This document shows, in pieces, positions 22,049-33,848 of a stretch of 64,000 bases of DNA. How positions within the stretch are numbered: position 1 is the stretch's first letter; every line of letters begins with the position of its first letter. The DNA is taken from assembly GCF_026226615.1 (NCBI RefSeq), contig NZ_JAJAPB010000003.1, forward strand, positions 186,001 to 250,000, given 5' to 3'. The stretch comes from Geovibrio ferrireducens (GTDB taxonomy: Bacteria; Chrysiogenota; Deferribacteres; Deferribacterales; Geovibrionaceae). The notes under the pieces are model-generated. The model was not told where the DNA came from, made no database searches, and saw nothing but the letters and a program-made list of their open reading frames with translations. The translations under genes and the position numbers were made by a program.

Positions 22049-23671
22049 TTAAGCGAGCATTCCGACAAACTCGTCTGCCTCTTTAACGGGGCTGAGTTTG
22101 AACTGCTCAACTATGAAGTTTGCCACAGTCGGAGAAAGGAACGCGGGCAGTGAGGGTCCGAGGTGGATATTTTTCACGCCGAGGTAAAGAAGGGCGAGAA
22201 GAACAGTGACCGCCTTCTGCTCATACCATGCCACATCATAGTAGATGGGGAGTTTGTTAACATCGTCCAGACCGAAAGCCTCTTTCAGTTTAAGCGCGAT
22301 AACTGCGAGTGAGTATGAGTCGTTGCACTGACCGGCATCAAGCACTCTGGGTATTCCGCCGATTGTACCGAGGTTCAGCTTATTGTAGCGGTATTTAGCG
22401 CATCCTGCCGTGAGGATGATGTAGCCTTCGGGCAGTTTTTCCGCAACTTCTGTGTAGTGAGAGCGGGTTTTGTGTCTGCCGTCGCAGCCTGCCATAACAA
22501 CAAAGCCTTTTACAGCGCCGGATTTAACAGCTTCGATAACCTTATCGGCTATGGAAAGAACTGTTCCGTGAGCGAAACCGCCGATGATTTTGCCTGTTTC
22601 AAGTTCAACGGGTGCAGCGCATTTTTTAGCAAGCGCTATGATTTCAGAGAAATCCTTTTTGCCGCCTTTTGCTCTGTCAGCAATGTGTTTAACACCGGGG
22701 TAACCGGCCATGCCAGTGGTGAAGATTCTGTCTTTGTAGGAATCCTTAACCGGCACTATGCAGTTTGTAGTCATAAGGATAGGTCCGTTGAAAGTATCGA
22801 ACTCCTTATCCTGATGCCACCATGAACCGCCGTAGTTACCTGCGAAATGGCTGTATTTTTTGAATGCCGGGTAGTAGTGACCGGGGAGCATTTCGCTGTG
22901 TGTGTAAACATCCACGCCTGTTCCTTCTGTCTGCTCAAGGAGCTCCTGAAGGTCTTTAAGGTCGTGGCCGGAGATGAGGATACCGGGGTTTTTGCGAACG
23001 CCGATATTAACCTCTGTGGGTTCGGGGCTGCCGTAACTTGTGGTATTTGCCTTATCAAGGAGCGCCATTGTGGTAACAGCCACTTCGCCGGTTTTCATAA
23101 CGAGTGCGATAAGCTGCTCCATGCCAAGGTTTTTCACTGTGGCCGCAAGAGCTTCTTTGGCAAATGAGTAGATAGCGTCATCCTCATAACCGAGAACGGC
23201 AGCATGCTCAGCATAAGCCGCTATGCCTTTAAGACCGTAGGTGATAAGCTCTTTAAGCGAGCGCAGGTCTTCGTTTGTTTCAAGAAGAACGCCAACGGAG
23301 GCTGCCTTCGCGTCGAGATCCGCATCGTTTGCGGGTTTCCATGTAACACAGTCCGGAGTCTGCGCGGGCAGAGCCGCTTTCGCCTTGACGGACTCCCTTA
23401 TATTCAAAGCCTCTTTCACAAGAGATGTCAGCTTAACATTGTCAAAGTTAGCATTGGTGATTGTGGCAAAAAGCGCCTTGATGGTGAAGAAACCTGCCTC
23501 TTTCTCGTAAACTCCGGCAGGTGCGTATTCGCCTGCGAAAGCTATACCCTTAAGGGTGTAGAGGAGAAGATCCTGAAGCTGGGCGGTATCAGCCTGTTTA
23601 CCGCAAACTCCCTTAACCGTACAGCCCGTGTTCTTGGCCGCTTCCTGACACTGCATACAAAACATACTCAT
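22049..23671 (-). CDS. hcp: hydroxylamine reductase / hybrid-cluster protein
   Basis: 540 residues from ATG 23671, which has a GGAGG at ideal spacing. N-terminal cysteines C5-x2-C8-x8-C17-x5-C23 are the class I pattern that binds a 4Fe-4S cluster. Hybrid-cluster ligands are seen in [33 protein letters not shown] and [11 protein letters not shown]. The protein reduces hydroxylamine in vitro and is thought to act as an NO reductase under nitrosative stress in the cytoplasm. Divergent from a Crp/Fnr regulator with one shared palindrome between them. Confidence 0.96.
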
Positions 23672-23707
23672 TAATTTGTCCTCCTTCTTTTTTTTTCTGA
23701 TGGAGTT

Positions 23708-23748
23708 ATGATATAAGAATAACAGGTAAATGATTTGACATGGATCAA
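23708..23748 (-). promoter_or_regulatory. hcp promoter with FNR/HcpR-type operator
   Basis: TTGACATGGATCAA (23735-23748) is a TTGA-N6-TCAA palindrome of the Crp/Fnr class. On the minus strand a TATCAT -10 element lies at 23708-23713, which places the operator centre about 41 bases upstream of the likely start, the class II activator position. The same site ends two bases before the regulator's ATG, so binding could also repress the regulator. Confidence 0.65.
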
Positions 23749-23750
23749 GA

Positions 23751-24395
23751 ATGGATAAAAAAACTGCAGTAAAGAAATTTTTAACGGCTTTTTTCGGTGA
23801 TGACAGCGTACAGGATGTCATCGACAGGATCTCAAGGGTAAAGACCCTCGACAAAGGGGGCATACTCTTCATGGAGGGGCAGACAGGCAGGTACATCTAC
23901 TTTCTGCTGGAAGGGAAAATCAAGCTCTACAAAACGAACAACGAAGGCAAGGAAGCAATAGTCCACTTCGTAGGGCAGAACGAAATGTTCGCAGAGATAA
24001 TCCTCCAGCTTGAGTGCTGCTACCCCGTTACCTCGGAAGCGATGGAAAACTGTATTCTCCTTGAGATGGATGCGGCGGAGCTTTTCAGACAGATTGAGAA
24101 AACGCCCAAGGTGGCAATGGCGATAATCGGGCTTCTGGCAAGGCGAATAAAATATTTCGTCAACATGATCGAAAACCTCACCCTGAAGGATGTGCGCGGC
24201 AGATTTCTGCATTATCTGGAAACCCTCCAGCACAAAGGGAAAAATACAGTCACCCTCCCGGTTCCGAAGGGGGATCTTGCGCTTCTGCTCGGAACCACCC
24301 CGGAAACCTTTTCAAGGCTGCTGAAAAAGCTTGCGGAAGAGGAAGTTATAGCCTATGAAGGCAGGAAAATAACCTTCCTGAAAGAGCTTGAGTAG
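23751..24395 (+). CDS. Crp/Fnr family transcriptional regulator, likely HcpR/DNR-type
   Basis: 214 residues: cyclic-nucleotide-binding-like sensor domain (about 25-120; [22 protein letters not shown]), a dimer helix, and a winged helix (about 150-214) with recognition helix [15 protein letters not shown]. It lacks the N-terminal Cys cluster of FNR, so a haem or NO sensor of the HcpR/DNR kind is more likely. Its position divergent to hcp across one palindrome argues for control of hcp. The ATG has little ribosome-site support, since the operator occupies that place. Confidence 0.85.
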
Positions 24396-33032: not shown

Positions 33033-33848
33033 TCAGCCCAATGCCACATCCAGAGTCATCATAACAGCGAAGCCCAGCATTGTTCCGATTGTGGCTATAT
33101 CAGTATTCTTTTCAAGCTGGGATTCTGGGATCAGCTCCTCCACGACAACGTAAATCATTGCTCCGGCGGCAAAAGCAAGGGCATAAGGCAGGATAGGCCG
33201 CATAGCCAGAACCGCCAAAACGCCTATTACCGCGGCAATCGGCTCAACTATGCCCGAAAGCTGCCCGTACCAGAAGCATTTGAACTTGCTCAAGCCCTCT
33301 CTGCGCAGCGGAACAGAAACCGCTGTGCCTTCGGGAAAGTTCTGTATGCCGATACCAATGGCCAGAGCAACAGCGCCTGCAAGATCCGCAGACGGCAGTC
33401 CGTAAGCCACAGCACCGAAAGCAACGCCTACCGCCAGCCCTTCGGGTATGTTATGAAGGGTGATTGCAAGCACCAGCAGAATACTCCTCTGCCAGCCTGT
33501 TTTGATCCCCTCAGCTTCGGATTTCGGAAACCCAAGATGCAGGTGGGGCAATACCTTGTCAATACTCCAGAGGAAAGCGCCCCCGGCTAAAAACCCCACA
33601 ACAGCAGGTATCCATGCGGGCGTATCGCCGCTGTTTTCAGCCATTTCTATGGCAGGAGCAAGGAGAGACCAGTAGCTGGCGGCTATCATAACACCGGCAG
33701 CAAAGCCCAGCATGCCGTCCATGAGTTTGCGGTTTATTGTGGTAAAAAAGAACACAAGGGAACCGCCGAGGGCAGTCATCCCCCATGTGAAGAGGGTAGC
33801 TATAAGCGCCTGATAAACCGGACTCAGTTCTGTAAACATTTCAACCAT
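33033..33848 (-). CDS. ZIP family divalent metal transporter (ZupT-like)
   Basis: 271 residues, eight transmembrane segments. The binuclear metal site of ZIP proteins is seen as [19 protein letters not shown] in TM4 and [15 protein letters not shown] in TM5. The TM3-TM4 loop is His-rich at its start (VLPHLHLGF). It imports Zn2+, Fe2+ or similar ions across the inner membrane. It is a single gene; no Zur/Fur site was recognised upstream. Confidence 0.92.

Follow-up and report, generated by a model that had tools for sequence, protein, structure and literature searches.

A palindrome beside hcp and an HcpR1/DNR-type regulator gene is a predicted hcp operator in a Deferribacterales-related bacterium

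The closest described systems are those of the HcpR1 regulators, for which the accessible parts of two papers give the motif wyTTGACnnnnGTCAArw, in its 2004 form ATTTGACCNNGGTCAAAT, and tie proline or serine at position 180 together with E181 to sites of the type TTGAC..GTCAA (PMC1274295, PMC545781). According to the portion available of a further study, the gene for HcpR1 of D. desulfuricans has its own product bound upstream of it, and in the nap cluster of Deferribacter a predicted HcpR1 site overlaps a start codon, consistent with repression (PMC5701242). Within the Deferribacterota, hcp of Deferrivibrio metallireducens was 45 times higher on fumarate plus nitrate than on fumarate, as given in the accessible text of PMC11896075. 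The word Deferribacter is absent from the Rodionov 2004 paper, and the literature searched, outside which most subscription papers lie, returned no paper on the hcp operator described here in Deferribacterota. The HcpR/DNR type of switch is thus already published, and the example is new.

The locus was analysed within a window of 64 kb (the whole stretch of DNA under study). Here hcp and a regulator gene diverge from a gap of exactly 79 bases (23672–23750), bounded by the hcp ATG at 23671 on the minus strand and the regulator ATG at 23751. The features of the locus are collected in Table 1. The initial annotation had described a single palindrome in this gap, ending two bases before the regulator ATG, and both statements were confirmed: TTGACATGGATCAA ends at 23748, and there is no second TTGAN6TCAA in the gap, the sole other copy in the window being at 33280. 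The pattern is not in excess (2 occurrences in 64 kb versus 2.08 expected from shuffles), and TTGACATGGATCAA with up to three mismatches was matched 4 times in the window against 7.04 expected. As this count is unremarkable, the case is built on position and on relatives; judged from sequence, TTGACATGGATCAA taken alone is near chance, and it is the relatives that give conviction. A search of the whole window with Rfam at gathering thresholds returned three tRNAs and nothing besides.

Table 1. Features of the hcp–regulator locus, in window coordinates
Feature	Position	Strand	Basis
hcp, hybrid cluster protein, 540 aa	22049..23671	-	NCBIfam NF003658, Prismane in Pfam
Shine-Dalgarno AGGAGG of hcp	23680..23685	-	sequence
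Predicted hcp -10 hexamer TATCAT, 21 bases past the operator	23708..23713	-	TAnnnT spacing in relatives
TGATATAAG, putative -10 of extended type for the regulator; overlaps the hcp -10 of the opposite strand	23709..23717	+	inference
Predicted operator palindrome TTGACATGGATCAA (TTGAC/TTGAT half-sites)	23735-23748	. (matched on +)	sequence and conservation in relatives
GGA within the operator, SD-like for the regulator	23742..23744	+	sequence
Crp/Fnr regulator, HcpR1/DNR type, 214 aa, recognition helix TPETFSR	23751..24395	+	Pfam cNMP_binding, HTH_Crp_2

The hcp product scores 816 bits against NCBIfam NF003658, for which the cut-off is 367. From its TATCAT hexamer, hcp is predicted to start at about 23701, which places the centre of the palindrome at about -40.5, in agreement with the earlier estimate of some 41 bases upstream of the predicted start. 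No -35/-10 pair was found in a search of 23600–23800, and the layout is that of a class II promoter, with the site spaced for -41 from the -10 and a good -35 absent, although there are exceptions among relatives. Of 30 hcp promoters, 25 have a TAnnnT hexamer that begins 20–22 bases past the site, and the other five lack it at that position; counted on the 29 unique promoters the share is 0.83, versus a shuffle maximum of 0.52, in a test that has a tolerance of three bases and was framed, like the loose palindrome used below, after the promoters had been seen. The promoters of L031, L032 and L034 stood outside this test. A first -10 profile with fixed E. coli weights gave no clear peak at 20–22, the top offset being 12 (3.06), and when offsets 12–27 were scored the best -10 fell at 20–22 in only 23 of the 30 promoters. 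The spacing seen in 25 of 30 promoters is, as read from the sequences, the geometry of a class II activator. The class II activation of hcp predicted initially finds good support in the conserved site and its spacing from the -10, with some exceptions among relatives. We consider it likely that the adjacent regulator activates hcp through TTGACATGGATCAA.

The opposite sign of control, in which the regulator would repress hcp when the signal is absent, has a precedent in HcpR2 of Desulfovibrio desulfuricans, which the accessible part of PMC5701242 models as an hcp repressor released when NO damages its Fe-S cluster. Such a mode is highly improbable here, since in most relatives the spacing places the site near -41 and not over the -10, and since this regulator has no N-terminal cysteine.

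The comparison with relatives was made from both genes. A search with the regulator matched 48 of 59 genomes at E <= 0.001 (own genome included, paralogs among the matches), and the loci of the 30 best matches, from 30 genomes with our own among them, were read. A divergent hcp is adjacent in 15 of these 30, with TTGAYN4RTCAA in the gap in 14; the fifteenth gap (L029) is one base off this pattern. At the 15 loci where hcp is not adjacent, the strict pattern does not occur in the 230 bases before the regulator, and two of them (L036 and L037) carry a looser site more than 200 bases from it. The search with hcp gave 41 matches in 40 of 49 genomes (own included), and 30 of the 41 were read, the second hcp of G004 lying outside this set. 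A loose palindrome, which had been widened to fit known sites, is found between -110 and -40 of all 30 hcp loci, where shuffles gave a mean of 0.19 and a maximum of 3 of 30. The pattern TTGAN6TCAA is present in the same interval in 22 of the 30, and strict TTGAYN4RTCAA within 110 bases before hcp in 17. One-base departures account for 13 of the 30 sites: five from genus g3 with a CTCAA half, seven from genus g13 with a TCAT end and one from g5. Where the regulator is encoded away from hcp, the palindrome still precedes hcp in 14 of 14 genomes read (all of the 15 but G044). Its distance to the regulator ranges from 9 to 146 bases across taxa, and that to hcp from about 58 to 102. On this comparison the operator belongs with hcp rather than with the regulator, which makes activation of hcp the likely selected function and leaves feedback on the regulator optional. 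Since the site stands before hcp and not before regulators away from hcp, the predicted activation of hcp is the function that would be conserved.

Outside the phylum the association holds as well. A single scan of named genomes yielded 61 regulator loci, of which 18 have a divergent hcp and 17 of those the strict site; five of the 18 overlap the first set (L091, L098, L104, L107, L125), leaving 13 new divergent pairs, from named delta-/Desulfo- groups, and all 13 contain the strict site. Among the 43 loci without a divergent hcp, the strict site occurs within 350 bases upstream in four (L113, L129, L144, L147). The 14-mer TTGACATGGATCAA recurs identically in L127, L130 and L131, which are Desulfobacula/Desulfobacterales loci. 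All 13 loci outside the phylum have TAnnnT at 20–22. Seven of them, however, have a hexamer closer to TATAAT at 17: L126, L127, L128 and L130–L133, from records named Desulfobacteraceae, Desulfobacula, Desulfobacterales or Deltaproteobacteria. The nearest named relative is L091, 'Deferribacterales bacterium Deferri_01', whose regulator is 93% identical; records of Desulfuromonas and Desulfuromonadales match at about 43–54%.

The regulator has a Crp/Fnr fold in which cysteines occur only at positions 89, 90 and 101. The N-terminal cysteine is absent, and with it the N-terminal Fe-S cysteine cluster of the oxygen sensor Fnr. Its best solved relative by sequence is DNR of Pseudomonas aeruginosa (PDB code: 3dkw; 92 bits), compared with 39 bits for HcpR of Porphyromonas gingivalis (PDB code: 9day). 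A structural model of the regulator, built with 12 aligned relatives, has a mean pLDDT of 81.6; DNR ranks first among PDB folds compared with it, at a modest TM of ~0.5, and P. gingivalis HcpR ranks 36th. The similarity to DNR includes sequence and recognition helix alike. The TPETFSR helix carries the proline at 180 and E181 of the HcpR1 type. Among the 30 regulators read, position 180 is proline in 21, alanine in eight and glutamine in one; judging from these sequences, the published recognition code holds for this regulator, and not uniformly among relatives with similar sites. The operator itself, with one TTGAC and one TTGAT half, lies between the HcpR1 and DNR/FNR consensus sequences. 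By analogy with related regulators, NO is probably the signal.

A different Crp/Fnr protein, for instance an oxygen-sensing Fnr, might be considered as the ligand of TTGACATGGATCAA, given that TTGAT..ATCAA is also the Fnr box (PMC1274295, in its accessible part) and that the genome encodes two further proteins with a Crp-type HTH, as identified by eye. However, the recognition helices of these paralogs, also read by eye, are SRESVTK (CRP-like in its R-E and K) and HRVSITK, neither of the xPETFSR type, and the PETFSR helix is unique among the three. Moreover, all 28 of the distinct divergent pairs in the two sets (15 + 13) combine the site with the regulator gene, one of them with a one-base departure. 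Binding by another family member is accordingly very unlikely, and the adjacent regulator is the favoured candidate.

What the site does to the regulator gene is less clear-cut. The putative extended -10, TGATATAAG, whose end is 33 bases short of the regulator ATG, is common to two congeners; the next genus (L011) has TGCTATAGT. A confounding factor in the proposed overlap of this element with the hcp -10 is that the latter is itself nearly palindromic. With this promoter, the operator would follow the putative start of the regulator, and because the site ends two bases before the ATG, no -10 fits at an activating distance. Of the 15 loci lacking an adjacent hcp, 12 have a -10-like hexamer with its end 5–7 bases ahead of the regulator ATG (shuffle mean 1.96, maximum 7), and the sequences suggest that these regulators have leaderless or near-leaderless mRNAs. 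In L012–L017, L019, L020, L022, L025, L026 and L033 the hexamer is TATAAT-like, often TGnTATAAT.

These loci bear on a reading in which TTGACATGGATCAA activates hcp only and the regulator is constitutive and unaffected by binding. It is favoured by the lack of a site at all 15 regulators away from hcp, by their 12 of 15 hexamers close to the ATG, and by a palindrome whose distance to the regulator varies while that to hcp is held. In this species, however, the site lies between the putative regulator start and the ATG, so that some effect is likely, and in relatives of genera g5 and g6 it seems, partly by eye, to overlap the -35 or spacer of the likely regulator promoter. We place this reading somewhat short of an even chance. 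Repression of the regulator by the operator, as deduced from the geometry here, we hold to be evenly balanced. A block of the regulator promoter had been proposed from the outset; the geometry makes it plausible at this locus, and it is not conserved, as the regulators away from hcp have no site (0/15). A rule of autoregulation conserved across the phylum was rejected on the same count of strict sites. The other half of that proposal, a block of ribosome binding, is set aside as wrong, since a regulator of this kind acts on double-stranded DNA. The operator does, even so, contain the GGA of the regulator, and no other SD-like triplet occurs among the 20 bases that precede the regulator ATG. 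It is conceivable, if unlikely, that one 14-base sequence serves as predicted class II operator of hcp, as roadblock for its own regulator and as ribosome-binding site of the regulator, with a shared -10 region from which one promoter fires at a time, and that lineages in which the regulator is encoded elsewhere than hcp express it from a constitutive, near-leaderless promoter with no operator before it.

The genome contains eight TTGAYN4RTCAA sites, six of which have TAnnnT at 20–22 before a gene. These six predicted targets comprise hcp itself, the genes of a hemerythrin and of NIT-domain and DUF1858 proteins, and two operons, one with narG and one with a zinc-ribbon gene. Family assignments were made on genes of G000 and, for the zinc-ribbon piece, of G001, and recurrence was judged by eye from N-termini. 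The NIT target is a NIT-HAMP protein and the DUF1858 target a DUF1858/SBP_bac_6 protein; at the nar target the first gene encodes a 140-aa protein containing a CISCH motif and the next, read in part, is narG-like. The zinc-ribbon target has a short ORF ahead of the gene for a zinc-ribbon-like protein, which falls under the Pfam cut-off. Among the four genomes compared, the sites before hcp and before the DUF1858 gene recur in all four, those of the hemerythrin and NIT genes in three and that of nar in two. The zinc-ribbon site is present in G000, G001 and G003, and G002 has a similar site with TATTCT at 22. The remaining two genome sites, C3:304866 and C6:74771, have no -10. Over the four genomes the strict pattern occurs at 33 places and its reversal at 17; chance would thus account for about half of the sites, and single sites may be chance occurrences. 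No nir, nor or nos gene was seen behind any of the eight sites among annotated neighbours. Searches of the genome itself gave two matches to COX1 and, for cytochrome c552, one above the cut-off and one below.

Several further observations concern these and neighbouring genes. The palindrome TTGATATACATCAA, or its reverse complement, occurs at G000 C6:74771, G001 C8:265693 and G002 607406 with no -10 at 20–22. In all four genomes compared, a protein with DUF1858 and SBP_bac_6 domains (L039 235–1419, L155, L089, L081; domains tested on L039 only) follows an operator-like site that has its -10 at 21. A zinc-ribbon-like protein of about 80 aa stands behind an operator-like site in L044 (1501–1514 and 1688–1930), L076, L090 and L013 (2235–2540), and may be a nitrosative-stress gene. 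In L012, L013, L014, L016, L017 and L020, the six of eight g3/g4 loci whose upstream genes were inspected, napG- and napH-like genes are followed directly by the regulator; a family search on L012 gave NapG and NapH as best matches, under curated cut-offs. This neighbourhood, as far as gene order can indicate, points to a link of the regulator with periplasmic nitrate reduction.

Taken together, the proposal as a whole is likely: TTGACATGGATCAA would be the operator of the adjacent HcpR1/DNR-type regulator, with class II activation of hcp, a small nitrate/NO regulon and a neutral or repressive effect at the regulator. A dimer of the regulator, most likely activated by NO on heme as in its relatives, would bind TTGACATGGATCAA at about -41 of an hcp promoter that has a -10 and no recognisable -35, and the conserved spacing suggests that it would recruit RNA polymerase there in the class II manner. 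The same regulator is predicted to switch on the small regulon at the same spacing. For its own gene, TTGACATGGATCAA would be only neutral or repressive, sitting just past the putative start; because of this position and of the overlap between the two -10 elements, occupancy or transcription of hcp would tend to shut the regulator promoter.

Set against known systems, the locus most resembles the HcpR1 regulon of Desulfuromonas, Desulfotalea and Geobacter (Rodionov 2004, 2005, in the parts accessible), with its Crp/Fnr regulator of hcp, P or S180, E181 and the motif ATTTGACCNNGGTCAAAT / wyTTGACnnnnGTCAArw; there too the regulons reach nar and nrf genes. It differs in its mixed TTGAC/TTGAT half-sites, in its host genome, which has a Deferribacterales record as nearest named relative, and in predicted targets that include NIT-domain, DUF1858 and zinc-ribbon genes. 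P. aeruginosa DNR is the nearest solved relative by sequence and fold, with the same PETFSR helix and an FNR-like box, but DNR, according to the literature portions at hand, controls nir, nor and nos, whereas the associations of this regulator are with hcp, nar and nap loci. From the HcpR2 branch, HcpR of P. gingivalis is described in the available part of PMC12750200 as an NO-responsive, heme-binding activator of hcp; that protein is a far weaker sequence match and has, on the text accessible, another DNA motif. The HcpR/DNR type of nitrosative-stress switch is hereby extended to a Deferribacterales-related bacterium, with a concrete candidate operator and a predicted regulon of six targets.
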